Below the pieces are notes generated by a model. That model ran no database searches, was not told the origin of the DNA, and saw nothing but the letters and a program-made list of their open reading frames with translations. The position numbers and the translations under genes are program-made. Shown in pieces: positions 2,763 to 62,735 of a stretch of 64,000 bases of DNA. Source of the DNA: Trachythela sp. YZ-2020 (Eukaryota > Cnidaria > Anthozoa > Malacalcyonacea > Clavulariidae); the NCBI GenBank assembly GCA_016169945.1, contig JADLSH010000091.1, positions 806,001 to 870,000 on the forward strand, in the 5' to 3' direction. Position 1 is the first letter of the stretch. Every line of letters starts with the position of its first letter.

Positions 2763-3070
2763 AGATATGGGTTCATATCTAATCTGTGATTATTGTAAGG
2801 GTTAGGATTGGGGGATTAGGATTTGGTTAGGATTAGGGGAATCCTTTCTATATTACTATCCAGAAATTACGTCACAAGGTTGCGATTAAAAGTTAGGATC
2901 AGGGTTGGGATTAGAGTTAGGATTAAGATTAAGTTTGTATTAAAATTCAGGTTGTTAATTTGGAAATTGAGCCGGATTTAGTTATTTAGGAAAATGGAAA
3001 AGTAGACATCGCTAAATGCCGATCCTGCAGCCGAGAAGCCCTGGGTACGAGGTTGATCCAGGGTTGATCC

Positions 3071-3147: not shown

Positions 3148-3374
3148 CACTTGTTTCCATCTATCAAACTGACGTTACGCAATTTTCCCGATTTTCAAAG
3201 ATTTTCATATTCGTTTTTCTTGATTTTTCTTCACTTTGGTTAGGGTTAGGGTTAGGTAAGGGTTAGGGGTTAGGGTAGGTTTTCAGGGTTAGGTTAGGTC
3301 AGTTACAAAGTTTTTAACTTTACTTCAAAGTTGAAAAAATGACGTAACGTCAGTTTGGTAGATGGAAACAAGTG
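3148..3374. mobile_element. 227-bp MITE with 32-bp TIRs and an internal TTAGGG block
   Basis: Left 3148-3179 and right 3343-3374 are inverted repeats differing at one base (CACTTGTTTCCATCTA, then T or C, then CAAACTGACGTTACG). The middle contains short TTAGGG-type repeats (about 3238-3300). A 10-bp direct repeat, GATCTCGAGG, lies at 3133-3142 and 3381-3390, though not immediately adjacent to the TIRs. The element ends 41 bp before the likely TTC32 start codon, and an upstream in-frame ATG (3362) lies inside its right TIR. Confidence 0.75.
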
Positions 3375-3415
3375 GCGACCGATCTCGAGGCGACATTTTA
3401 CGAAAGCAAAACAAA

Positions 3416-3862
3416 ATGGCTACCGCCACTCCTATCGATGAACAAGAGTTTTCTAGGATAGAAAAGGAAGCTAAAAATCTTATGACAAATGGAGAGGTCG
3501 AGAAAACTGAAAAACTGTACACAAGTTTTATTGAGAGAGAACAGGAGGCCACAAAAGACAGAAAAATCCTCGCCTTAGCAAGAAATAATCGCGGACATTT
3601 ACGCTATTTGACTGTGGATTTTCATGGTGCTATTCAGGACTATACCGCCGCGATAAAACTTGATCCTTGTTTAGTCGTTTCGTACTATAATCGTGGACAA
3701 ATTCACTACAGAATGGGCAGGTTTAAACTCGCAATAGAGGACTTCGAGAGAGCTTTAGAATTGGATCAAAATTTTACAGACGCTCAGGATAATTTAAGAC
3801 AAGCAAGAGAAGATTTTGCTGCCAAAACTATGAATTCAACTTATCCTAATACTTTATCATAA
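3416..3862 (+). CDS. TTC32: TTC32-like tetratricopeptide repeat protein
   Basis: Intronless frame encoding a 148-residue TPR protein, close to the roughly 150 residues of vertebrate TTC32. An initial helical pair (residues about 8-40, FSRIEKEAKNLMTNGEVEKT) is followed by two clear TPR units: ARNNRGHLRYLTVDFHGAIQ at about 57-76 and SYYNRGQIHYRMGRFKLAIE at about 92-111, each with the alternating A/G/Y/F positions of the fold. The spacing and the YNRG..YR.G signature match TTC32. I chose the ATG at 3416 (context acaaaATGG) rather than the in-frame ATG at 3362, because the latter lies in the TIR of a MITE and would add 18 residues with no TPR content. The last ten residues are encoded by CCTAATAC-type repeat DNA that merges into the 42-bp tandem array downstream, so the native C-terminus may have been replaced. 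Confidence 0.85.
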   Translation: MATATPIDEQEFSRIEKEAKNLMTNGEVEKTEKLYTSFIEREQEATKDRKILALARNNRGHLRYLTVDFHGAIQDYTAAIKLDPCLVVSYYNRGQIHYRMGRFKLAIEDFERALELDQNFTDAQDNLRQAREDFAAKTMNSTYPNTLS

Positions 3863-5860: not shown

Positions 5861-5968
5861 TTTAATATACGGACCGAGCTTGCTTTGCTGGGATATGTTG
5901 GGATACGCGTTGTGTCAGTGTAGGTAGAAGCCCTGGGCACGAGGTTGCTATACAATAAGCTTCGGGCA

Positions 5969-6743: not shown

Positions 6744-12664
<5,921 letters not shown>

Positions 12665-18140: not shown

Positions 18141-18285
18141 GGGCCGGTTGTATAAAAAAGTAGTTAAAGTTAACTATAGTTAGTGCGAAAGTTAACCAAT
18201 CATAAACGCGAATTTTACAGTTAACTACTATTTAACTACAAAACGGGTAGTTAAAATGTAGTTAAGACTTTTATACAACCGGCCC
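18141..18285. mobile_element. MITE with GGGCCGGTTGTATAAAA TIRs and CAG duplication
   Basis: Perfect inverted ends GGGCCGGTTGTATAAAA and TTTTATACAACCGGCCC, with GTTAACTA / TAGTTAAC motifs inside. It is flanked by CAG at 18138-18140 and 18286-18288. The right end was partly duplicated when the 9.7-kb element inserted next to it, so this MITE is the older insertion. Confidence 0.8.
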
Positions 18286-20397
18286 CAGATGCAACCTCGT
18301 TCCCAGGCTCTTATCTCTTGGGGAGATAAAACCCTGGTTGTCGCTGGTCACGTGAACCCCCAGATTTTGGGGGAAAATCGAAATTGTTCTTAGGGATGGG
18401 TGGTAGAGGAGTGTGTTGTTGTCGCGTTTGGAAATTTTCAAATTTATGATTTTGCGTTTTGTATTCGTAAAACAGTATATATAGTATAACGCGCCAAATA
18501 TATCAACAAATTTTTAAAAACAGCATTGAAATTAATTACATCCTGTCTTGGAACATATGGAGTATTAAATTACATCTCAAGTATGGAGTTAAGGTCAAAT
18601 TTCAAGATCCTATCCATTCAATCGAGTCGATGGCTAGCAAAGACACGCCGAAAAAGCTCTACAAAAAACAAGAATCGAAGGCCAATATTTCACGTTGCAG
18701 ACTTTGTAATTGTGTTTCTGACCCAAAGCACAGTAAAAGTCTGTTTCGGAGTCAGAATCAAACAATTCTACGCAACGCGGAGATAATTTATGGTGGTGAG
18801 TTGCCACAAGGAAGCGACCTTCCTCGCCAAATTTGTGCGCCTTGTGAAAGGAGGCTAAACAATGCCGTACAGTTGAAGAAAATCATCACGGAGACGCAAC
18901 AAAGTTACGTGAAAATGTTCGAGCGAAACGATGTGTGGAAATTTCGCCATCTGTTAATAAACCGTCTGCAAAAGTGCGTGCAGTTGGGACTACGCGACGA
19001 CGAAGTATTGACTTCAATGTTGCAGCAGAAAAATCTCCACATCCAGTAAGTGTTCATCAAATATTAAAGCTTCTGCTGTCATTTAATATCTTTAGTTAAT
19101 TCTTTTCTCTATATAATTTTTTGAACATCATATTTCTAGTGAGTATTTTCGTTGAATATTTTGCGCCATTTTAATAATCATGAATGAATTCATTGTGGTC
19201 ATGAATGAATTAATCATTCATGCATATAAAACAAGACAAAACAATGGTCCAATTTTAATACAGTATTATACTCATATTTGAATTAATATCGTTTTGTGCT
19301 TTATGGTTTTACTTTAAACCTTTCAAAAACCTTTCAAAATATATCATTGTTTAGTATACAATAGCATGAAATTGTTTGATTGAAAATTTTGACAGTGTGA
19401 CAATGTTTTAAGGTCGAAACTTTTGATGCATCATCATCACAAATTCTCAATGAGGCAAACAAAGAACTCCTTGAAGTGGCAAGGAGGAGTGATGCATCTG
19501 TCCTGAGACAACGAAAGTATGATGGGTTATCTTCTGAGGGTTGGATGTCTGAAGTTATAGAGGAGATGGCAACCAGGTGTCCGATGGTGCATAAAATCCT
19601 ATCTGGTCTCTTGGAAAGCACCATCTATCCGGCAAAGAAGAATCCTGCAATCTGCTTGATTTATGGCATTGTGATGTTTTTGCGATGCCATGAATTAAGC
19701 AGAATCAACGAATAAATTCAGTTCTGTTGATAGAAGGCCAAGCATCTGTAAATGTAAGTCATTCTAAAATTTCTGTGATGATCATCAATAACTTGACCTG
19801 TTTGTCGCACTGTTTATATGATCTTAGGTACTGGGACACTCTACCTCCTGAGCTACCCTGGGAGAGGAAAATGACAATAATATTATAACAGCTGAAACGC
19901 AAATGTTTATATGGAAAGTTTTAAACTTGCCTCGGCTGGTAGGGTTCCCCTGGGTATAGGGTCACTCTGTTCGTGAAAGAGGGTGACCTAGTGGGAGGAC
20001 AACTTTTGTCCATGTAAACGGTTTGTCTTGGCCCCAGGACAACTTTCAGACAAGTTTTCAGACAGACGAACAAAAGGGAGTGTTTTCTCATATAAATGCA
20101 TGGTAAAGTTGTCTCAGAGGGTAGGGTGTCCTGGTCCCTCTCTTTAAATAGTCTCCCCAGGGCCTGAAATTGGGAGAACATTTTAGTTGCCCAAGTGGCT
20201 AGATACATGTACATGGAATAAAATATGGTTGCCAAATATAATACCAAATCTCCCTATATGAGGCTTATTGATCTATAATTATGAAAGAAGCTTGCTGCTG
20301 AGAGCTGGCTGAGCCACACTGCTGGGTGCCCGATGAAAGTAGGGGTAAGCCAATTTGTTGTTGCTTGACAAAAGTGCCCACCCACCCAGCCCCTATC

Positions 20398-20483
20398 TGA
20401 ATATTTCTATATTATGTATATGTTTGTGTAATTGCTTGCTTTACAGTAATTACACAAACATATACATAATATAGAAATATTCA
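20398..20483. repeat. Perfect 36-bp hairpin, 14-base loop
   Basis: 20398-20433 (TGAATATTTCTATATTATG...) and 20448-20483 are exact reverse complements separated by GCTTGCTTTACAGT. It lies in intron 2 of the DUF6589-like gene. Perfect arms in otherwise decayed DNA suggest a recent origin. Confidence 0.85.
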
Positions 20484-20499
20484 AATTTTGTGAATAAAT

Positions 20500-20762
20500 G
20501 TTTATGGGTAAACCCATTGCCTGGCAGTCTGTACCACTGATGAGTAAAATTGTCTGGCATTAGACAGAGTAAAATACTAAAGTAGGACACATCTGGGGAC
20601 ATTGCCTGCTGATGGGTAACAAGAGGCAATGGCAGATAGTTTTGTTGACCCATTAACCACCAGTACTCTACCACTGACAAGTAAAATACTCTGGCATTAG
20701 ACAAAGTAAAATATACTAAAGTAGTGTGCATCTGGGCATATTGCCAACTAATGGGTTATGCC
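20500..20762. repeat. Two tandem ~133-bp units of the TCTGGCATTAGACA repeat
   Basis: Each unit has ACCACTGA..AGTAAAAT, TCTGGCATTAGACA.AGTAAAATA, AAAGTAG, CATCTGGG..ATTGCC and TAATGGGTT. Diverged copies of the same unit lie at 40815-40880, 41320-41410, 41490-41545, 53700-53790 and 53850-53895. Confidence 0.75.
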
Positions 20763-23700
20763 ATCCAATATATGACATCCTCTGGTTATTTGACAGTTGA
20801 CATTTGCATCTGATAGTTGTCAAACAATGCATGGATATTCTCATCCATGAAATATTACAAGTAAAAGAAACCGCTCTTTCATACAGTATATGGCGGATCA
20901 TACGCAAAAGCAGTTTTAATATATTTTCTATATTATAATGTAAACCTTCAATTTAACCAATGCTATTGGAGTTTGATGGAACACTAGAAATAAGGATAAA
21001 CTAATTATTCCAGCATATTGGCTATCGAGGAGTTTCAATCTGAAACTCATTACCGAACAGTATAAGGAGTTTAAATAACTTAATTCAATTTAAGAAAGAT
21101 CTCAAAATAAGATGTTAATTCTATTTGACTATTTGTACTTTGGTTCTTTGATATGAACCATGTTTTAATTGTTTCTAATATTATCATGTAAAAGCCTTCT
21201 GGGAGAGTTCATAATTTTAAATAAATAAAATTAAAGCTGTGGCTTGCATTTCAGCAAAATGAGAATTTCAATTTTAGAAAGAACAGCTGCTTTGTTACAA
21301 AGCAAAATATGATCTCTTTCTTTCACCTTCTTTGAAGTCCCCTGACTGCCTTAGTGCATAAGAGCTACGTTTGGATCCAGTTTGGGATTATTACATGTAT
21401 CTTAGTATCTATTTTTGACACAGAAATGTAAACAAAACAGTGTGTCTGGTATTTAATAGTATATTATGCTTAAGCTCATGAATGTGTCCTTATACTTTCC
21501 ATATTCTTTCAGCTGATTGCTCGCTTGAATAAGTATGGTCTGTGCCTTGAACCCACAAAGAAATACACAATTCTGGATGACATTGGAAAACAATTCATTG
21601 ACCATGCTGCGGATTTGGTAAAGTCTGGACATAAATTTGTCTATGTATTAGACAACATTGACTGGGAGGAGAAAGCTCATGACATGAGACAGAATGTGCA
21701 AAACAGGAGTGTTCATGCTGTGGCAACAAGTATTGTATTTAATCGAGTTTCTGATGAAGGGTTGCCCGATTCTGGTCCACAGCAAAGTCTAAAAGATTGC
21801 AATGTCCATCAGTTGGTGGATATCAATCGACTGGAATTGGAGGCAATTAGAAGCCGATATAGAATACTTGTTGCTAAGCTTTTGTTTGAACATTTTCCTG
21901 CTTTTTGCAATATTCAAGCCTTATGTAGCTGGAACCACTGAATGTCAACGAAGCAAGGACATGTCTACCAAGTCGGAAGTCATGACAATGCCCATCTTGA
22001 TGAAAGACGAAAAAATATGCTGAGTGTGTGGATGTACTGGATCAGCTTGAGAAGTGGACCCAAGAAATCTACACAGCTGCTGGGCTATGTTCCTCGCTTC
22101 CTCAGAACCCAATGATGATGATACCACACCCACCATTGGAGCCACATCCAGACCAGACCAACCAGCCTCGCATGTACCACCTGCTGCCTCTGAAAGTGAT
22201 CCATTGCATGGTGTAAAGATACCATGCTTTGGTGATCAACTCACCCGGGTCAGATTCGCTGGAGCAAAGATTTAAGAGCTGGATGCCATTCTGCAAAGCA
22301 GAGACTGGATCACCTCTATCCATTTTGCATTGTTGACTGGCACACCAAAAGAAGTTTCTTAAAGGTATGGTTTCTGTAAGCTATGTACAGTATTAACTAT
22401 GTCTTGTGGGTAAACCAATTAATTCAAGACCCACATACAAGCTTTGTCTCCTGCAGCAGTAGACCATATACAGGTAGCCTCTTCTTGCATCAGATGATAT
22501 TACCCTTTGTACAGTACTTGTAACCACATCCAATGTACTAATCACATCCAATGTGTTTAGCACAGTACTAAACACAGTGGATGTTAATGGCTTATTTAAC
22601 AACAGAGATAAACAAATACTCTTCTTACAGCACAATACAAAACAGTGATGTGTCTAGATAGGAGCCTCATATCAGAGTTAATTTGTAACCCATTACTAGT
22701 GGCATCCTGAACATTGTTAGTCTGTGCCCTTGCAGTAAACTATTATTGGGGTAGAACCTCTTGGGGGCACCCCACAATAATTTGGCATTTTGGAAGCAGG
22801 GCTTACAAATAGGGCCTGGGACACCTTTCGCTAAGGGCCCACTGCTCACGTTGGGAGAGTTGGGGGGTGTCATTTGCTGAGAAGAAAAATAGGATTAAAT
22901 ACAAAATTAAATTTTTGTTCATTAAATATCAGTGATTTATCCCAAATATTTAATGAAGGGCCCAAAACTTTATAAACATTGTAGACCTTTGCATGCTTGG
23001 GGCCCACAATTGCCAGATTTCTGGTGGCCCACCGGGAAATCTCCTGGTGGGCCAACGCCGCCCCTGTTTGGAAGCATCAGAATTCAGAAGCCCATTTTCC
23101 ATGTTTCCGGAGAGGATTTTTATAAAAATTATGAGGTTTTTACATCTAAGAATTCAATATTTTTACCGATAAGTTACTTTCAAATTCTACATTCAAACCG
23201 ATGAAGGTCAATTTACAGACAGTTTTCTTAAAAATTGGATTGGGGCATTTTGCACCCCCCCCCCTCGGTATGCCCTTGTCAATTACTGTGCTGTCACAAG
23301 AGATTACATTTGTTGAAATGTTTTATAGACAGTTGCAAACACTTCACTAGTATTGTACCAAATGTGGGCAGATTGTCAAATGCAATTCTTATACTGTTCC
23401 ACAATGTTTACTGATTCACCAAGTGCTAACAAAACAAACACAATAATATATGTATAGAACATCCATATCAATATTTCTCTCTCTTAGGAAATATGTCGTC
23501 TTCAGTATTTATATAAGGATAATGATATGCCTTTTTTTTCTTTTAACAAAGTGACATCATGGTGTCAAAATGTGCCTTCTGTGATGACAAATGTTGGTTA
23601 AAATTAAACATTTTGAGAAGAGAATTTCAATCAAACCTCAAGTGAAAAGTTCAGTACCTTTAGCTATCACATGTACAATATTGTTATTTTTTTTTTGTAC

Positions 23701-25570
23701 AGACTGTGTTCAAGAAACTGTATAAGAACTCTGGTAGAGAGAAGGGAACACTGCGATTTTTTCGAGAAAAGCTCAACCGAAGAAATGTCACAGTTGATGT
23801 AAAACACTATGAGGATTGTGAGCAGCTGTTTTACAGTGTTGGTAAGTGTTTTGTAGTTGAGGCCCTTATGGAGTTCTTCCAAATGGAGGATACGAAACAC
23901 AAGCCAGCAGTGAACGGTCCTCATAGTGTCAACGTCCTAAAAGAAGAATATAGAAAGAGCTACATTATCAACATACTTGACAAATTTCTTGATGAGTTTG
24001 TTTTTCGTTGGTGGTGAGAGTGATGATGGAGATATGGATGATGGAGATGAGGACGATGGAGACAGAGTTGATGAAGATGGTGTTTGGAGTTACGGAGTTA
24101 ACATCATAAAGTGTTTCATGTTGCTGGCTGATTTTAAGGATGCTGTCTCCACAGGCAATGGCGAACACCTATCGATCCTGAGAAAACAGCTGCTGGTCCA
24201 TTTCTTTGCAACACCTGGATTCAACGAGTTTGCGATTGAAATGCTGATAAATATCCTCCAGTGTGAAGTGTTGCTGTCAAGAGCTGAGGCCCATCGTTGC
24301 AAATGGGCTGCTACGGTCAATTGGAAAGGTGGTGCTGGCAAAACATTGAAATTGACCTGTTTCAAGAAAATAGGAACTGCGAGATGAAGAAGTTGATCAG
24401 ATCAATGGGTGCCAACAAGACGGACAAGGCTATTACCAGAGCAAGTAAGGCATCAGGAGGAGTGACCAAAATAGTGGATGCATTTGAGCAGCAGGTTAAC
24501 ATTCGCCCTAAATCAACAACGCACTCCCACAAATCAGCAACTGAGGATGAAAGGATAATAAGTAGGGACATAAGAGGTTTAAGGCCTTTTAAGAAGGAGG
24601 ATGGAAGAGCATTTGAGTCCTTTGCAAGCATTTCCTGTGATCCCATCCACTCTTTGGACAAAGATAAATTTGTGACATGGATTGATAGACATAAGAAGAA
24701 CATATTGATGCACTATCCGGTTTCAGAAGATGCTGAACTGTCCAATGAGTGATTTAGTTTATCACAGAACTGTCCAGTGAGTAATTTAGCAATTTTCAGA
24801 AAGTAGTCTATAGTGTAAGTTTGTTAAAAGAACTGTTGAGGTTTTGGTTGAACTACCTGAGAAAGGTACTGTAATCCTCAACATTTAGAGCTAATCCTAA
24901 GGACATTTGTCCAGAACATTCAAAATGTCTTGGTTTGCTAACTTGTCAAGGCAGTTCGATCAAAACCTTAGCAGGTTATTGTCAGATGATTAATTGCTAT
25001 AAATATTAATTGTTAAAAGTACAACTACAATCTGCAGACAGATACTACATATAAAGATGACACAGACTATACCATAAGCTGGTTTCTGTGAGAATTTAAG
25101 ACTACTATAATAGTGCTGGTTCTGATTTGATTCAAAACCGCCATAAATTTTAACTCACAGATGGCAGCTTATTTCCAAACATCCACTATAAGATATCAAT
25201 TAGACCAGAAATTTGTTTTATAGGGTGCAATATAAATAACTCAAATATTTAGAGTAAGTTTAGTTGTGAAGGCGAGACTTCACTTGTGCTGATCATGAGT
25301 TTATGTCAGCCTTAGTAACAAAATTTAATATATTGTAATAGCACCAAGTTGCACTTGCACAAGTCATATGGACACAAATTTATAAATGTATATATTGCAC
25401 ATTTTATGAGAAATTTTGAGAACAGTTATAATAAAAATTAACAAAATATTTACACTAGTGGTCTCAGTCTGCATTTTGTTTGTCCATCACTCTAATGAAG
25501 TACAGTAACATGTAATGTGATAAAATATAATTTATATACCACAAACTCTTAGAAATTGGAATAAAATGTT

Positions 25571-25716
25571 CAGGGTTTGAATTAACAGATAGTGAATAGC
25601 AATTCCCTATCCATTTTTGGGATTTCGCTATTCACTTTGTTATACAGCGTACTGGTTTTATATAACACATCACTAGAAATTTGCTATTCATTTTTAAACT
25701 TTTAATTCAAACCCTG
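25571..25716. mobile_element. MITE with CAGGGTTTGAATTAA ends
   Basis: Left CAGGGTTTGAATTAA and right TTAATTCAAACCCTG are exact inverses. TGAATAGCAATTCCC / AAATTTGCTATTCA motifs inside also mirror. The 8-base flanks (aaaatgtt, aatatgct) agree at six positions, compatible with an old 8-bp duplication. It lies in the spacer between the two genes of the 9.7-kb transposon. Confidence 0.65.
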
Positions 25717-25944
25717 AATATGCTACAATTTTTTAAGCAGGCAAAGTTAAAAAAGTTTTGTTGGGTCCTTCCAGAAAATATCACACTCTCCCTATCAAAT
25801 AAATTGAACATAAACCCACCCACCATCTAAGAATGTAAGAGTATATTTTACTATTATCAAATGTAGATTCTTCTCCACTGATTGTCAAAAACCTCTACTA
25901 TAGGAGGAGTGTGGATCTTTCCTGGACTGATCTGAATGTTTCAC

Positions 25945-27867
25945 TTACAATTTTTCCATGAGAAGCTGTAAGCACATGGAACAGTTACATTCTTTTTCAC
26001 AGACACCACAACAAAGGTGCAATGGCTTAATAAAAATATCCTGTTCATAATCAAGTGACTTCAGCAGTAACTTCCTCAGACATATGTTGTCACTTGAACA
26101 AAAGTTGCGCATATCATCTTGCATACCCACTCTATTCTTGCCAATGTCTCTGTTGTTGTAGTATAAGTAAGCCGATGAAGGTTTGCCATCTCTACCGGCA
26201 CGCCCTGTCTCTTGGAGGTATGCCTTCACTGTACTTGGAGGCCCAACATGGATGACCTGACGGATGTCAGGAATGTCCACGCCCATTCCTATCGCTACTG
26301 TCGTAAAAACCACACGAATTGTACTTCTTGCTGAACAAAGTTGCTTCAAAATCTCATCCTTCATCTCAATGGTTTGAGGAGCATGAAATTGTGCAAACAG
26401 CCTGTTTGCTGGAATTGAGGCAGATCCAAGAGGGAAATATTGTTCAGCACCAAGAACATGCTCAAACATCTTGTACGCAAATCCACATAATCTTAAGGGT
26501 ACATATACGATAGTCAATGGATAATTTATCTTTTCCTGTAAAAGATCTCTGGCTACTGGTATCAAAATCGATTGAATGGCGTTGACATCTTGCCCATGTC
26601 GAAAACTTTTGGTAGAAAATATTTTTCCGATCTGGATTGCCAATAATGCATTCACAATTCTTCAGTCCTAACGAGTCCTGGATACATTTAATATCAGTCC
26701 GACTTGCTGTCGCTGTCATCGCAATAACGGGTACATCGGAAACAGTGCACACAGCACTCCTAATTTACCATAGTCTTTTCTGAAATCACTCCCCCTGCAA
26801 TAACATAAAAACAAAATGTAAGTCTGATATAAAAGCACATTACATTCAGGTAGGAATACACAGGCTATGCAGATTGCAGAATTTTACGTAAGGCTCGCTT
26901 TGTCCCAAGCCACTTATTTATTTTCCAAATTTTGTGTTTACCACTACCATCATGACATAATTTTGAAGGGAAGGTGATTGGGCATAAACAATCTAACATT
27001 TATTAACACTACAAGCTGACAATTCAGGCATTCGCTGTCTAACTTTATACCTTCTTTTCAAGTCAATTTTGTATTTGTGTAGGTATATTACACATCAAGA
27101 TTACGCATATAAAATAATTTATAGTCATCATTTACAGTAGGTGTGGGTAACACGATTGCTAAATAACATAAAACTTCGCCATTCATATTAATACAGTGAT
27201 TGGCAATCCTACAAGGACATCAAAATATTTTAATACATGCATGGAAGGTGAAACGTTGACTTGATACTAACCAGTCTAATATACAATGAGCTTCGTCTAT
27301 AACAATTGCAAAGACATTTTCTTGGTATATCTCGCTCAGCAATAACTCCCGTCCATATTTGCTCGAAATAAGTGTTTCTGGATGAGCAAAAACAATGTTG
27401 TAATGACCATCGCGTAAGTTTTTCTCTTCACACTGGCTGAAGTCAACATGTATATTTTCATTATTTTGGTCGTCAGAATCCTCGGCCAGTTGATCCATTC
27501 CCGATTCCTTTAATACATTGATAACCGACGCTCGAATACCACTCATGCTTAGACGCGATACTTGGTCACTTATCAAAGAATTCAATGGCGATACAACAAT
27601 AATAATGGAGTTAACTACGGCCGTAGAAATACCTTTCGATGCCCGAAGTAAATCGTCTGGCAACTTGTATTTCGCGAACAACAACATTGGCAGAAGATGA
27701 TAAATTAAAGACTTGCCATAACCCGTCGGTAAAACACACATCACATCCTTCTTTAGATACATGCTCTCCAAACAAAGAACTTGCTTTGGTTTTAGAATAA
27801 TTTGTTTATATATACTATTTACAACCGCAAATTCTAAGCAAGATAAAAAGGCAATGTAGTCCAGCAT
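25945..27867 (-). pseudogene. RecQ-like SF2 DNA helicase, two frameshifts
   Basis: ATP-dependent 3'-5' helicase family. Exon 1 is 27867-27272 from an ATG with a good GCC context; the frame upstream of it begins in the element's TIR. It shows motif I LPTGYGKSLIYHLLP, motif Ia VVSPLNSLISDQ and motif II VIDEAHCILDW. Donor GTTAGT joins in phase to exon 2 at 26794 (GSDFRKDYGKLGVL). Exon 2 carries motif III MTATAS, motif V TTVAIGMGVDIPDIRQVIHV, motif VI QETGRAGRDG and a Cys cluster CCGVCEKECNCSMC (zinc-binding region), ending at 25945. Within exon 2 the frame shifts at about 26750 (a TGTGTG run) and at about 26603 (a TTTT run). The two shifts together restore the original frame, but the unshifted frame has a TGA between them. 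A GTAAGT overlaps the stop, so a further exon is possible. The HRDC and RQC domains of WRN/BLM are not seen. Confidence 0.8.
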
Positions 27868-28028
27868 GGCGGAAACGCGAGAGAAATGCTTGTCAAGTGG
27901 AAGCTTGTAATATGATACTTTCCCGACACCCCCTAAGGCAATGAATTTTTGATAGGTCACGTGACCAGCGGCATCCAGGGTTTTTCTTCCCCAGAAGGAA
28001 AAGCCTGGGTACGAGGTTGCCCCAGATG

Positions 28029-39728: not shown

Positions 39729-41849
39729 CTATGGAAAAAAATATTGTGGGTGTCAATGTAGATATTGGTGTAAAAGACAACTACTCAACTAGAATACGAT
39801 TACACATCCAACATAGAATATGAGGTCTGAGCACTTGCACAACATTAAATATCCCGCAGTAAATAGCACTTGCCAAACATCAAATGTCCTGCAGAAAGCA
39901 AGCTAGATTATATACTTTGTCTCAGTGGTGAAGCTAGACATTAGCAACTAGCCATGCTATGCAATTATTGAAACCTTTATTTGAGTTATTATAAGGAGAG
40001 TGGGATACTCGGCAGTTGACTGTTCTGTAAAACTACCTGAAGACTGGTAGACTGCCTGGACATTATGTCATGCTATAAGCTAGCTTGGATTAAGCAAAAC
40101 ATCTGGCCACAATAGAATCTTAGGAGAATAAAAATTAATACACTATTTTAAAATGCATTGGACATTAATCGGTTAACCTTGAATTATCTCGATCGTGTGG
40201 TGCCAGTGTGGGTAGAGTATAGCAAATATGGCAGTTGACTGTTGTGTAAAACTTCGTCTGGAAGTTAGTAGAAGCCCAGACAAAGGGCCTTTGCTTGAAA
40301 CGTCGAACTTCTTATTGTATTTTTCAGGTAGTTTTACACATGTTCAGTCAACCGCCATAACCTTGAATTAGTTAACTACATACTGTATCAAATCTTTGCA
40401 CGCATAAAAATACAAAAATTCTAATTGTTATTTTTGTAAGTCCCTAATGCGACCAGAGGTTTTCTCATCCAAGAGAGATAGCTGCTTATGGTATTACCTG
40501 TACATAATGTCTACCCAGTCTCCTACACTCCTTTGATTACTCAAATTGTCTGGAGTTAGAAAGAGCATTGTCAAAGCAAGCCATGGAAACTGCTCTTGCT
40601 ATTCAAATAAGCATGCATTAAAATACTAGGCTAAAGACAATGCATTTCTGAAGGTTTCAATAATTAAAGAATCAACAATTTGCATAGCACAACCAGTTGC
40701 TATCTCTAGCTTCATCACTGAGACAGAATATATAATCTACCTTGTTGTGAGACAACCCACTGAATAAAACAGCCTGGTTTAGAACAGGTCGCTGCATATT
40801 GATTGAAAAACTGACTGGTATTAGACAGAGAATAATAGCGAATTAAGGCACATTGCGGTTTAATAGGTTAACCGTAAGTGAGGAGTTAATTAGAGTTAGA
40901 ATACTATACTGATATTAATCGTCTCATAGTTTGTAGACATGTGATGGTCAAAAGACTGCAACCCTAAGTTTTCCCTGATCTGAATACCTTTTACATTGTC
41001 ACATTGGCCAACATCAAACACACATAACTTGCTGCAGTTCATTCAATCCTTGTATAATTTGTTTTGTCTCTTCCAGTAACATATCATTGTTCTAATCTTT
41101 GAGTCCTGAGGACAAGGCGAACCATACAGAAATATACCTTGTTTCGCCAGCTCCAAATATACAATATCTGTCTCAAGAGAAGTAAACATATATATTAGGA
41201 CAACCTGACAGCTTGACATTTATATAATACACATAATAGAGTATATATTGAATGCCAATAGACAGGTCTCATAATTATGTCTATTTAAGCCATGCATATC
41301 CAACACTCTTTCTTTCCCTTAACAAGTAAAATCGTCTGGCATTTAGACAGAGTAAAATAGGAATGTAGGGCCACTAGGGTGAAATGAGCAAATTGTCTTA
41401 ATGGGTTAAAAGAGACATGGGAAAACAGTTCGGTTAACCCACCGACATCCAGCGGTCTGTGGCACGAGTACAATCATGTGGTGTTAAACATAGTAAACTA
41501 ACGTATGGGAATTAGGGCACATCCTTAATGGTCAACCACTCAACATTGGTAACGGTCAGGCATCGTTAACATTATATGTACAAAATTTATTACCTTTTCA
41601 ATTTGTGCAGGAACATTATAGAATTCTCTAATATTAAGCAGTGGCAGACAGTAAGGGGGACTCATATAATCTAAAAATATAAGATGTATTTTAATTTGCA
41701 AGCACATTTCAAAAGGTAATAAATTTTGCTCACAGACACAAAAACATTAATTAATGAACCCTGGTACGCATACTATAAGAGTCGACTATTATTGGATTAA
41801 ATTACAGTTATATCTAAAATCATAATCAATTTTAAGTATTTTGCAATAA

Positions 41850-44321: not shown

Positions 44322-46022
44322 CATAATAACAACAATGCCGTCGAACAAATCGCCAGGACCAGACAAAATCAGCATGCGAAATATTAAGGATTGTCTTCCG
44401 GTCATACTCGGCCCATTGACAGACATCATTAATATCTCATTTACCACCTCGGCGTTCCCTGAGTCCTGCTAAATTGCAGAGATTATACCACTATTAAAAG
44501 AAGGTGATCATGAAGTTGCTGCAAATAACCGCCCACTTTCAATGCTCAAAGTACTATCAAAGATCTGCGAAGAAGTTGCTCTAAATAAATTTAGCGGTTT
44601 TCTTAACCGCACTGACCGCCTATCCTCCCAACAAAGTGGAAACAAAAAGTATCATTCAACCGAAACACTCAGTATATTAGTCAATGATTTTTTGCTAAAA
44701 TCGTTGGACAACAAAAAGCTTACTGCCCTAGTCCTTTTGGATCTCTCAAAAGCATTTGACAGCGTGGACCATTCAATCCTGTTATAGAAACTAAGCAATA
44801 TTGGGGTTTCAGGTGAAGCGCTAAACTGGTTTGAAAGCTACATTTCGGATAGAAAGCGGTTCGTTCGAATTGCCCCCTCGGTATCCGAAGTCCTGCCAAT
44901 CACCCACGGAGTGCCTCAGGGAGCAATATTGTCACCGCTATTGTTCTGTATTTATATAAACGACCTTTCAAGAGTACCACAAGCATCTGAGTTAGAATCA
45001 TTCGTTGGCGATTCTAAGATCTTCATGTCATTTCCAATCGAAGATATTGCTATTGCAAAAACAAAGATAGAAGAGGGCCTCAAATTGGTCGCAACCTGGT
45101 TTTTCGAAAATAAACTGTTGATAAACCCCGAGAAGACAAAGTTACTCATGATAGGAACTCGTCAACTGCTCGGCAAGCTCCTAGAAGAGATGACAATTAC
45201 ATTTCTTGGTGAAGAAATTACACCAACTACAAATGCCAAAGACCTGGGATTAATCCTAGACAGTTATCTGACATATGATTACCATATCAAAAATGTTGTA
45301 TCATCTTGTATGGCCAAGCTGTCAGATAAATAGAGTAAAGGATAGCTTCGACAGGGATACACTTCGCTTAATTATCAATGCTTTAGTAATGAGCAAACTT
45401 TATTATTTCTCTACAGTATGGTCAAACACTTCTGCAACAAATATAAAGAAATTGAGAGCAGTACAGAATTTCGCTTGTAGGATATTGACAAATACTGGAA
45501 GATATGATCATGTAACACCAGCACTACGGTAAATACGCTGGCTTCCTGTCGAGGAACACTTAAAATATAGAGAGGCACTAATAACATACAAATGTATGAA
45601 CGGATTAGCACCACCTTATCTATCCAAATTATTTATAAAAAGAAACGAAATTCACGATCTAAATACAAGGAATAACAAAGCGCTACACATCCCTCAACAC
45701 AAAACAGTTTCAGAACAAAGAATTCGAACCTTTTATTACTGAGCGGTGATGTTATGGAATGACTTGGATGAAGATTTAAAAAAGTTACCTTGGAAAAGAT
45801 TTAAAATTGAGTTAAAGCAGAAGATGCTAACATTATACTAACATTATACTTAATAGATTTTAAATAAATGATACTGAAATAATTACACTTCTGATCTCAT
45901 AGACAAATAGATTTTAAATAAATGCTATAAATAGGAACTTTAATTTTAATATAACTATTCGTACTGTAAATAGGCATTGAAAAACCCTCTCCGGGAATAC
46001 TTTATTAAATAATAATAATAAT
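44322..46022 (+). pseudogene. CR1/L2-like LINE ORF2, reverse transcriptase part (3' fragment)
   Basis: Broken frames give the RT order: MPSNKSPGPDKI, NNRPLSMLKVLSKICEE, motif A region LVLLDLSKAFDSVDHSILL, motif B GVPQGAILSPLLFCIYINDL. At the catalytic motif C the usual YADD is replaced by FVGD (SFVGDSKIFMSF). Later NPEKTKLLMIGTRQ, NAKDLGLILDSYLTYDYHI and WLPVEEHLKYREALITYKC follow, ending with LWNDLDEDLKKLPWKRFK. In-frame stops occur at about 44470, 44785 and 45330. The 3' end is an AATAATAATAATA run near 46008-46022. Dead retrotransposon, plus strand. Confidence 0.85.
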
Positions 46023-47995: not shown

Positions 47996-50900
47996 TCACA
48001 AGTTTCTCCACTCCCCTGTGGTAATTGGCCAAATCAAGTCCAACTTCTTGATTCCTTTTAAGCACTCTTCCAACTTTCTACGCGAGAAGCCTTTCTTGTT
48101 GTTGAAAATTGACAAGATTTTCTCAGCTCGTGAGCGGTTGTCATTGTACGTACTAGTGTTATCTCGAATGTCATCCCTTCGTTCTTTGGCTATATCCATA
48201 AGACCAGCAAGGCTGTCCCAGTCAACAGCAATGCGCTGGCTTAGTCTGAACATTTCACGAGAAGAGAGAGGTGTGTTTCGTAACTTAACGTTCTCGTTTG
48301 CATCGACCTCAGGTGGGGATGGTGGTGTTTCTACTTCTTCAGTTCCATTCTGTTTAGAGACTTCAATTTGCGGTGGTGTTGTATCTACTTCTTCAGTTCC
48401 ATTCTGTTTAAAGAAAAACAATCTTTCATTATATTCTGTTTAAACCTACAGGACATTCAATTTCATTTTTATTGTTTAACGAGCTGAATGTAGCTGAGAC
48501 TGGAAGAATTAAAATATGCAAATCGAAATATTCAACTGTTTAATCATCATTTGAATAATATGCAACAATTGCTCAAAGAATAATTAGTTTTCGCACGGTG
48601 AACTCGCTCTAAACTAGAAATTCTATTCTATTCAGTGGACTTTTCTGTGTTTTGCTTTAAAATTACACAGAAGACAAAATATGGTAGCACAAAAATTATT
48701 GTGAAACATAAATAGATGATTGAACATTTGAATACTTTGATATGCATATTCTAATTCTTCCAGTCTCAGTTACATGCTATGGTTCAAAATTAATTATATC
48801 GGCCGACGCAGAACGCGCCATTTGGATGCGCAGTCGAAACTACGAACTTCCATTAAGCAAGATGAAATATATAACCAAGCATAGACGAAGCAAATTACTT
48901 TACGACTGTTTTAAACCTTCTAAAACTTTAAAAAAGAGAAATTGAAGAAAGAGAATACACAAATACTGCAGTTCTATATCTATATTGGGAAGAATTTAAA
49001 GCATTAAATACCTCGTTTTCCACAGAACGCATTTCGTTTTTTAAATCGTTTCGTCCCAATTCTTTGAAGTATTTTTCCAGAATATGACGACCGAAACACT
49101 GACTGCCATTAAAGAGCGCGAAAATTTGCGCGGCTTTCGAAGGACAATCCGGATATTTTGCGTGATTGGTTCTGATTTCTTCTCGCTTAGAATATGGAAT
49201 ATCCATGAGTCCGGCTAGGCTGTCCCAGTCCACTCCAACCACGTTGCTCAACCGATTGATTTCTCCATTTGTGAGTCTTGTGCTCCGATATATAACTAGA
49301 AATGGAAAAGAAAATTATTTGACTCAACTGCGCATCCAAATGACGCGTTCTGCGTCGGGATAAAATTGCGGTTGAATCCTAACATCTGGCTGAATAAATA
49401 TACCTTGTGGTTCGGTGTCTGGTTCCGTGGATTGTACTAAAACAGAATGTGAGAGTATCAGTAGAGTGCAATACAATGGAACACAAGAGCAAACAACTGT
49501 ATAATCAAATACGATAATAGAATGCAGAATAGTATGAAATACATTAATTAAGATAAGTACAATACGTTTTAAACAGAACAGTGCAGTGCAGTGCAGTGCA
49601 GTACAGTACAGTACAGTACAGTACAGTACAGTACAGTACAGTACAGTACAGTACAGTACAGTACAGTACAGTACAGTGCAGTGCAGTGCAGTGCAGTGCA
49701 GTGCAGTGCAGTGCAGTGCAGTGCAGTGCAGTGCAGTGCAGTGCAGTGCAGTGCAGTGCAGTGCAGTGCAGTGCAGTGCAGTGCAGTCATAGAAATAAGA
49801 GACATAGAATGCGTACTCCTATCTTTTCTCAGTCAAAATTTTGTCTCCACAAAATGGCGGTTTTCTAAGGGCACTTTGACTGGTCCCAGACTCACGTCGC
49901 AAGGAATTTCGCGCGGTAAAAATACTGACAGGTTTCCCTACCAGTCTTGTCACCGCTCTTTCTATATCTACTGCTACAACCTAATGCTGAACAGGTATTT
50001 GGCATTGTTTTGCCATTCAAAATGGCGGTTTTCTAAGGGCATGCATGAAAAAAAGTGGAGACATGATTCGTGATCAAGTACGCATTCTATGTCTCTTATT
50101 TCTATGAGTGCAGTGCAGTGCAGTGCAGTGCAGTGCAGTGCAGTGCAGTGCAGTGCAGTGCAGTGCAGTGCAGTGCAGTGCAGTGCAGTGCAGTGCAGTG
50201 CAGTGCAGTGCAGTGCAGTACAGTACAGTACAGTACAGTACAGTACAGTACAGTACAGTACAGTACAGTACAGTACAGTACAGTACAGTACAGTACAGTA
50301 CAGTACAGTACAGTACAGTACAGTACAGTACAGTACAGTACAGTACTACATACAGTACAGTACAGTACAGTACAGTACAGTACAGTACAGTGCAGTGCAG
50401 TGCAGTGCAGTACAGTACAGTACAGTACAGTACAGTACAGTACAGTACAGTACAGAACAGCAATGCAACACAATTTTTACCCCACTTTTTTGAATGAAGG
50501 GAAATAATTTCAAATTACCATAAGCTTCCTCAACTCTAATCTCCTGTTCCATTTCATGAATATTCAACTTCCACAGTAATTTCTGTTCCTTGCACTGGAC
50601 TCTCTATTGCAGTTCCTTGAAATGATCGATCACGAAACAGAATCAGAGCAGTTCAGGCTGGTCTGATCTTTTCCGAAAAAGGACTGGAATCGACTCCATG
50701 GAAAACAAACACATTTCAAGACGACGATCAGTGTGGACACGTTTCGACATTCCTTTATCTCCTTTAACGTAACCTTCTTTAAAATGATCCTTCAATTGTT
50801 TAATGTCTTCTTCTTTATTTTCATCAACAAACGAGCTTACTAAGACAACCGAAATATCTATAGTATCCATTGGAGGTAGTCTGCGATAGAAAGCATACGC

Positions 50901-53900
50901 ACAACAGGTAAACGAGTGATTGAGATGACTCAAGATTCGGGCTATCGTCCCGCGCATTGCTAAAATCCAACTATAAATAGAGAAACCGTTAATTTTCATA
51001 TTTACAACTCCCTCCACTGTGTTCTCTTCGATATCATTAGTCACCAGTTCCCAAACGACCCTGTGATAATCGCGGTTGTAAGAACCATGTAGGATGAACA
51101 GTTCAGAATCGGAGACGGTCTTTTCAAATCTGATGGTAAGATCGGCTGGTTTTAAGAATTTCAAGCCGTCTGGGAGAAATTCAACAACTCGCGGGGCAGC
51201 ATCGAGTAGTCCTAAATCCAGCAGTGATTTAAAGGCAATATTCTGATCGTCTTTTATCAAAGTAATTTCTGTATCCTTAGCAAGACATCCAGGTCCGATA
51301 TTAAGTATGATGTCATCTATCTGGATAACACCTCCGTCTGGACGCATTGAAACAGCTGGAATAGAATAAACATAGTTATAATAATAACAATAATAGAATC
51401 TATTTTATTGTGGCATTTATAGATTATGTTTTGGTAATGTGTGCTCATTCCAATAATCCTTAGGTTGGTTAGTAAAATCATAGTTTGAAACTGAAAAGTT
51501 GACAAAGTTATTGTTCAATGATTTCTTATCAACCTAAACTACCTCTGAGTCTGCAGAAATTTGTCAAGATAACAACTCGCAATGGGAATTCGAAATTGAT
51601 TTGATTCGGCTCTATCTATTTTTTCTATTTTTATGACGTAACATTACCAATACATAAAACAATATCTTACTTTTACCGAGAGGCTCCTTCGACATAGATT
51701 TTGGATCACAAATTTCTCTTCCTATTGGTTCTTGCTAAAAACGAAGTTATAAGATTCTGGTAGTGTTGCATGGCGATATAGTAGAAAGCAATGTCGAAAT
51801 TGGTGAATTAGTGGAGCTGGCATATACCGTATTTACTCGTTTAAGCGCAGCGGCACATATTTGAGGGGGCGCTTTCGTAAACAATAATGTTAATAACAGG
51901 ATAATATTCAGTACAGTGTTTTACAAAATATCAACGTCACTGTTGTGTAATTCGCCCTTCGTGAGAATTGAAATATATACTCACTCTAAACTTTACACTG
52001 TAACACTAAATATGAACTCATATTTAAAGATTTAAGACACATATTGACATAGGAATGCTTTTATTACTGAATATTGTCTTTTTTATGTTTTTTCACCTCC
52101 ATAAGAATGATTTTGTTGTTGCTAAGGCAGTGTTGCTAAGGTGATTTAAATGTAGCCAATGGGTGCACGAATTTACATCCAGGACATAAATCTAACCCCA
52201 TTAGGAAGTTTTAATTTTTCCTTTCAAATATGACTGCATGAATATATCTCGCAATCTCCCCTCTATTCCATTATAATCTCTATGATTCTTACCTCATCTT
52301 CATTAAGGTCGACACTACCATTATCGCCAATTATAACAGGACTACGATTAGGTTGTACTGCATGAACAGTGTAATAGGGCGGTAAGCAAGGAACTTGATT
52401 TATTTCTCTCTAAAAATATATACAGTAACATAGTAGTGCCAGTAATGCGGTGCCAGTGTAGGTAGCGGCTATACGTTTCGAGCGAAGGCCTTCGTCTGGA
52501 AGTTAGTGAAAACGACCACGAAGGGCCTTCGCTCGAAACGTCGAAGTTCTTGTTGAATTTTTCAGGTAGTTTGATCCTAAAGGCCCGAAGCTTATCCGCA
52601 TACAGTAGATTGAGTCATGTTCTTCCGTCCTAGCGGAACCCCGAAATATTCATGATAACCTGTATATATAGTAAATACAATCATGGGTAGAATGTTTATG
52701 TTGGCTTGTTTGGAATATCAACTAGGCGAGCTATACTCAGTTATGTCAAAATTTAATCAGCAAAGTTTATCATTAATGGTAAAACCTTATGTCAAGAAAC
52801 AGCTAAAGGCTTAGTTAATGTAAAATGAAAACGAAACTAATTAAGGCTTCTAAGTGAAATTGTCGACTTCATTTTATTACATAATGCCTTAACGCTTGAT
52901 TTCAGGAAGTCAATGACAAGGCGAAGGAACCCTGCATACGTGGCTATTCTTCTACGAAATTTCCGATCATAAAATGTTTCGAAACTCGACGAAACAGACA
53001 TGTGAAAGCCTGGTTCAAACAAGTATGAGAGTCAAGACTTGGAGATTGGACCTGTTTAAGACTTTTAGATTCATAAACAACAGCTTTGAAGATTGAAAAT
53101 CTTTTACTCTTTGGGTGCGACGGAAAGAAAAATCACTTTCAGTCAAGTGTCTTTCACGGCTGCAGACGGGGTGCAACTCCCAAAATATACAGTTTATTAT
53201 TACAATTTCGCCTCGGTGGCGTGTGTGAAAGCCGTTCTTCCAAACGTTTAACTCAAAGCCGCAGTTTTTCTTCGGGTATTTCGATCTTCTACTATATTAC
53301 CACAGGACCGTTTAAGGTTGCCCCTTAATGGATCTCTGGGGAGAAAAGTTTAAAATTTGGCAACATTTAAAGTTATCTGATATGAATACAGTTAGTTGTG
53401 TGGTATTTTAGGGAGATGGTATTGAAATATAACTGTCTGACTTACATTCGGAGAAAAAGGCCCGGCGTTGTCGGCGTACCGCTTCTTACGTTGCCATTTG
53501 TATCGCAGTACCACACTAACAACAATCACCACAACCACGGCAGCCGCAACAGCGCAACCAATGGTCAAAACCAAATTGGAGTAACCTCCTTTGATTTGAT
53601 CTAAACGACAAAGGAAGTTCGCAGAAACGCCTGGGAAGTCCATTGGTATAATGCATGCGAATGGATTTACTATATTAACCAATCAACACCCAACTCATTC
53701 CCCTTGACGTATAAAATCATATATGGCATTAGATTATAGATAAAATGAAAAAGTAGGGCACATTGCTGAGAAACGGGTTAACAAGAGACATATGAGCAGA
53801 TAGTCTGGTTGAGTTGACTGATTAATCCCAACAATTACCCTTTAATTAACGAATAAATCGTCTGTCGTTAGACAGAGTAAAATACAAAGAGTACAATACC

Positions 53901-62297: not shown

Positions 62298-62330
62298 ATG
62301 TACATTCCGAAAGACTAATTATAAACAAAC

Positions 62331-62346
62331 GGCTCTTTTAAGAGCC
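62331..62346 (+). terminator. Histone mRNA 3' stem-loop
   Basis: GGCTCTTTTAAGAGCC (6-bp stem, 4-base loop), 33 nt after the H4 stop, in the context AAAC before and ACCA after. This matches the SLBP-bound consensus that directs 3' processing. Confidence 0.95.
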
Positions 62347-62735
62347 ACCAAATCTCCTAGGAGAATACCAAAACAATTCGAAATTCCACTATTTGGATGT
62401 TGCAATTTCAACTATTCTTCCTGAGAACAAGTTTCTATATTCAAGAAATTTGAGTACGTTAAAGCTAACGTATAGAGTCAAAATATAGTACGGGAGCACT
62501 TTTGGGACACTATTGTCTGAGCAAATTAGTGCATGGGCGTATGTGTTGGGACTTGGTCAACAGAATGAATCACGCTAAATTTTAAGATAACAAGCTAACT
62601 GAGCAGTTTAACCCGCATGGCTATTTTAGTTAGTGTGCATGGCTACCTTATAACTGTGTTATTCTAATGATATATGTATACTGTATACTATATGTTAGAT
62701 TTGGTAAGATAAATAGAACAATCATGTCTAATTTA

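Follow-up and report, generated by a model that had tools for sequence, protein, structure and literature searches.

A 9.7-kb block in the genome of the anthozoan Trachythela sp. YZ-2020 raises the question of whether two convergent genes, one DUF6589-like and the other encoding a RecQ-type helicase, are adjoining host genes or the contents of a single mobile element and, in the latter case, to which group of transposons that element belongs. The block lies within a 64,000-nucleotide stretch of contig JADLSH010000091.1 (positions 806,001 to 870,000, assembly GCA_016169945.1), hereafter the window, in whose numbering all positions are given, and was picked out in an earlier reading of that stretch (the original prediction). 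We consider it, with a probability of roughly 0.87, to be a decayed DNA transposon of the AcademH type, lodged in an animal genome, with gene 1 as its transposase and gene 2 as its RecQ-type helicase.

Termini and target-site duplication

The inserted unit comprises 9,728 bp (18292-28019) between exact 9-bp direct repeats, CCCCAGATG; it starts with CAACCTCGT at 18292 and ends with ACGAGGTTG at 28019, and the 9-mers directly adjoin both ends. The limits originally proposed, 18283-28028, are exact to the base, and the inverted repeats of about 64 bp with identical outer 9-mers that had been noticed there correspond to terminal inverted repeats (TIRs) of 64 and 63 bp with CCCCAGATG on both sides:

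18283..18291, no strand: left target-site duplication (TSD), CCCCAGATG (read in the sequence, junction test)
18292..18355, + strand: left TIR, 64 bp, inner end GGTCACGTGA (alignment to right TIR)
27957..28019, - strand: right TIR, 63 bp (alignment to left TIR)
28020..28028, no strand: right TSD, CCCCAGATG (read in the sequence, junction test)

The alignment of the two TIRs spans 64 columns, one gap included, at 84.4% identity (E 2.2e-14, searched against the window), and a junction match of at least nine bases was obtained for 206 of 2,000,000 random position pairs within the window, a figure that simple repeats probably inflate. Because such a match is rare and the TIR stops exactly at the 9-bp repeats, a chance origin of these repeats is no serious option. 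Nine bases is the longest of the possible readings of the duplication; since the outermost G/C pair is compatible with the inverted repeat as well, a formally possible alternative would extend the TIR by one base and leave a 7-bp duplication, CCCAGAT. A palindrome, TCACGTGA, occupies the inner end of both TIRs (18348-18355 and 27957-27964) and is a putative binding site.

Gene content and relatives

Gene 1 (+ strand) and gene 2 (- strand) converge inside the TIRs and both are frame-shifted, as originally claimed: tblastn with intact relatives places frame changes in each. The Pfam scan covered eight pieces of the window, the gene-1 pieces falling between 18471 and 24749 on the + strand. It detected zf-AD in a gene-1 piece at 32.4 bits (cut-off 28) and DUF6589 (PF20231) in three gene-1 pieces at 12.8, 15.9 and 25.7 bits, none of which reaches the cut-off of 27. 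Whilst the window pieces alone are sub-threshold, the DUF6589-like character attributed to this gene is borne out by its intact relatives, all 16 alignment members of which match the profile (best 5.2e-44), five of the 16 also carrying zf-AD; the intact relative P0001 passes the DUF6589 gathering score with 118.9 bits against 27. A further gene-1 frame change falls in 24005-24082, in addition to those in the following lines:

18630..19045 (exact end inferred), + strand: gene 1 piece 1, zf-AD (ZAD) plus linker; frame change near 18902 (Pfam, tblastn)
19428..19756, + strand: gene 1 piece 2, frame change near 19706 (tblastn)
21510..22373, + strand: gene 1 piece 3, frame changes near 21904 and 22260 (tblastn)
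21651-21653, + strand: proposed first Asp codon, in DNIDW (conservation; residue choice inferred from the P0001 model)
22234-22236, + strand: proposed second Asp codon, in GDQLT (same basis)
23694..24005, + strand: gene 1 piece 4, part of DUF6589, helical insertion (Pfam, tblastn, P0001 model)
24082..24749, + strand: gene 1 last piece, end of DUF6589, frame change within 24339-24369 (Pfam, tblastn)
24366-24368, + strand: proposed catalytic Glu codon, in DLFQEN (same basis as the two Asp codons)
25948..26793, - strand: gene 2 C-terminal half, Helicase_C followed by a Cys-rich tail (by eye), at least one frame change (open reading frames (ORFs), Pfam, tblastn)
27271..27849, - strand: gene 2 N-terminal half, PTGYGKS and DEAH stretches within the DEAD domain (ORFs, Pfam, tblastn)

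The gene-2 pieces match DEAD and Helicase_C, both above the Pfam cut-offs, and alignment to intact relatives by tblastn required gaps and a second frame, the ORFs overlapping. Since gene 1 contains several frame changes and gene 2 is interrupted, the copy in the window looks dead, with an intact frame, as read, for neither protein. That the helicase is RecQ-like, as had been suggested, is supported by P0029 of the octocoral Dendronephthya gigantea, which is 70% identical to the read-through gene-2 query and matches 38 distinct Protein Data Bank (PDB) sequences at E <=1e-10. The molecules are all named as RecQ-family or ATP-dependent DNA helicases, and the names include bacterial RecQ-type helicases, WRN, BLM, Q1, Q4 and Q5. 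No nuclease family was found among the Pfam matches of the eight window pieces, a weak ResIII match covering the helicase region.

No sequence match to gene 1 was found in the PDB. The structure model of P0001 has the P-element and Hermes transposases as its best structural matches, at 5-10% identity in the eight best rows, and conserved Asp304, Asp497 and Glu746 of this relative lie at the sites expected of a DDE triad in the model. The RNase H-like fold that the original prediction proposed to look for is thus predicted for a relative, together with three acidic residues, and favours its suggestion that the DUF6589-like protein is the transposase. We propose that the catalytic core of gene 1 is of the RNase H-like DDE/D type with a large helical insertion and consists mostly of DUF6589.

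Relatives were collected on the gene-1 side by a first protein search, giving 28 matches, among them proteins of D. gigantea, Montipora, Desmophyllum and Paramuricea, and by a profile search of which the best 120 of 240 matches were listed; for the helicase the best 120 of 7956 were listed. One match, P0028 (an integrase-type protein covering 9% of the query), was excluded from all alignments and counts, and the resulting gene-1 set has 132 rows, 27 from the first search and 105 new from the profile search; the alignments made from gene-1 rows were A1 (n=27), A2 (n=16), A3 (n=43) and A4 (n=35). Among the matches listed, D. gigantea has at least 11 gene-1 gene numbers on contigs of differing length, ten of them marked PF20231. 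The nearest relatives point to an octocoral as the probable host. For pairing, the 132 gene-1 rows were compared with 119 of the 120 helicase rows (the row not included, P0147, on 3,843 bases, lies below the 9-kb limit used for matching, and P0121, which has no contig, was given length zero), 86 and 73 rows respectively lying on contigs above 9 kb. At least seven contigs above 9 kb are common to the two lists, identity of contig being taken from equal size: three of D. gigantea (126242, 250424 and 725607 bases) and four in ENA records (82433, 793920, 29500 and 1253474 bases). On one of the seven the gene-1 and helicase gene numbers are consecutive. From the 11 D. gigantea gene numbers and the seven shared contigs, the element looks like a multi-copy two-gene unit. 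Within the limits of these lists, a single species holds the pair at several positions, as a transposon would and one conserved host locus would not, and this tells against the refuting condition named in the original prediction, by which the genes of relatives would lie at conserved host loci. The view of the block as one inserted unit is accordingly backed by the TIRs, the 9-bp duplication, multi-copy relatives and the recurrent pairing of the genes. No confirmed relative was obtained from viral contigs scanned with an N-terminal helicase piece, the gene-1 alignment and the TIR pattern, or from bacterial and archaeal genomes scanned with the gene-1 alignment; an animal transposon is not expected in such sequence.

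Two repeats inside the element were also observed. A 42-bp inverted repeat (20395-20486; 95% complementary, eight bases between the arms) lies in the presumed gene 1 intron and is possibly a small nested insertion, and a dispersed repeat of about 137 bp is present in two copies (20512-20756), with partial copies elsewhere in the window at 41322-41369 and 53776-53893.

Family assignment and rival readings

In the available part of PMC10045372, AcademH is described as making duplications of 9 or 10 bp and AcademX of 3 or 4 bp, the difference being tied to possession of a helicase or a nuclease; the group goes back to Kojima 2020 (Mobile DNA 11:15), which places it in animals and fungi according to the title as cited. 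The accessible text of PMC10799480 ascribes DEAD and Helicase_C, among other domains, jointly to AcademH, KolobokH or Helitron. The element has a 9-bp TSD, CCCCAGATG, in the one copy examined, DEAD and Helicase_C domains of the RecQ family by way of P0029, and TIRs of 64 and 63 bp with 84% identity. Because a 9-10-bp TSD and a helicase fit, and the TTAA duplication of Kolobok is absent, AcademH is the best filing for the element, a placement that follows the published description of TSD and helicase. The suspicion that AcademH might be the same or a sister group agrees with that description of TSD length and helicase, and the fold model, the triad sites and the fit of helicase and TSD make gene 1 most likely the AcademH transposase.

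That the block represents two adjoining host genes, its TIRs and duplication owed to chance or to something else, might be argued from the host-type RecQ names that several D. gigantea relatives bear in annotation. We give this next to no chance, given TIRs with an E value of 2.2e-14 that end exactly at the 9-bp repeats, at least 11 gene-1 gene numbers on D. gigantea contigs of differing length, at least seven contigs shared by both genes, and the broken state of both genes in the window copy. Mutator-like elements typically make 9-bp duplications, and the duplication here matches that type; nevertheless, neither a Mutator nor a MULE Pfam family occurs among the matches of the eight window pieces or the 16 relatives, whereas DUF6589 occurs in 16 of 16, so that a Mutator-like element is very improbable. 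The original prediction was only partly right in calling a 9-bp duplication unusual beyond Mutator-like elements, since AcademH makes 9-10 bp (PMC10045372, in part). A Kolobok element of the KolobokH type would account for the RecQ helicase, and the red-alga Kolobok-1_CCri carries one on the complementary strand in a similar arrangement; however, as far as the available text of PMC9587614 goes, Kolobok duplications are TTAA (4 bp) and KolobokH is described from fungi only, whereas this element has the 9-bp CCCCAGATG and gene 1 is DUF6589, and we regard such an origin as highly unlikely.

What weighs against the AcademH assignment itself is that AcademH is known here by description only, that DUF6589 goes unmentioned in the literature searched, and that PF20231 spans most of the gene-1 catalytic core with the first Asp outside the Pfam match. 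The term DUF6589 was absent from that literature, the letters PF20231 appeared only in papers titled on other fields, and the accessible parts of PMC8290104, PMC10294476, PMC12730594, PMC12210899 and PMC9970103 contain no tie between DUF6589 and Academ; the original AcademH description may already cover the gene-1 protein under another name. The knowledge of AcademH by description only and the absence of the term DUF6589 would suit a DUF6589/RecQ lineage outside Academ, a separate superfamily with equal duplication length, but the combination of helicase and 9-10-bp TSD is that described for AcademH (PMC10045372, in part), animals and fungi being included by the title of Kojima 2020, and we consider the separate lineage unlikely. 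A broader conjecture, which we hold to be doubtful but of some plausibility, is that DUF6589 proteins as a whole are DDE transposases partnered by helicases, with an architecture like that of the P element and hAT, RecQ helping to set the unusual 9-10-bp stagger and part or all of the family being perhaps separate from Academ.

Surroundings, proposed mechanism and known systems

Elsewhere in the window, the end motif CAACCTCGTNCCCAGG has three further exact copies (691-706, 3040-3055 and 5932-5947), of which those at 3040-3055 and 5932-5947 share GAAGCCCTGGG on the + strand. Allowing up to three mismatches brings the count to nine, of which two are the element's own, where 0.54 would be expected; 0 of 100 shuffles reached nine. 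The extra copies are possibly ends of related short, non-autonomous elements. No 9-bp flanks were found at these extra ends in the window, and a second element built from the left-type end at 691 and right-type ends at 739/740, 3055 or 5947 was rejected, the flanks matching by at most one base (shifts of up to two bases). Other features are:

3362-3859, + strand: TPR repeats, host-type coding piece
9281-9760, - strand: elongation-factor GTPase domain, host-type coding piece
44788-45330: reverse transcriptase (RVT_1) fragment, retroelement remnant
49324-50073: ORFs on both strands, partly short repeated peptide runs, indicating a simple tandem repeat
62326-62370, + strand: histone 3' untranslated region stem-loop (RF00032, 35.8 bits); a histone gene may end there

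By analogy with known cut-and-paste transposition, the AcademH-type transposase would bind the 64-bp TIRs through its N-terminal part, where the ZAD domain lies, cut at CAACC/GGTTG and join the ends to the target with a 9-bp stagger, from which host gap repair would then produce the 9-bp duplication. The RecQ-type helicase might open the joined intermediate or the excised ends, and probably unwinds or processes DNA in excision, strand transfer or gap repair. Should the AcademH reading be correct, DUF6589, a Pfam family of unknown function, would make up most of the catalytic region in a helicase-carrying transposon group, and eukaryotic genes labelled 'DUF6589' would be transposon genes and not host genes. 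The kind of element, AcademH, is already known; the useful part is the assignment of DUF6589, and the predicted P-element/hAT-like core with its insertion would offer a structural frame in which to test what a RecQ helicase does for the transposon that carries it.

Set beside AcademH, with which it shares a helicase gene and a 9-10-bp duplication, the element has no differing feature that we found in a comparison by description only. AcademX belongs to the same Academ superfamily, but combines a nuclease with 3-4-bp duplications (PMC10045372, in part) where the element has 9 bp. A RecQ helicase within a DNA transposon is common to the element, KolobokH and Kolobok-1_CCri, which differ in their TTAA duplication and are described, in the available text of PMC9587614, in fungi and a red alga. 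With the P element and hAT (Hermes) it would share, on the evidence of the model, an RNase H-like core in which a long helical region precedes the last acidic residue, whilst differing from both in its accessory gene and TIR, with 5-10% identity in the structural rows.
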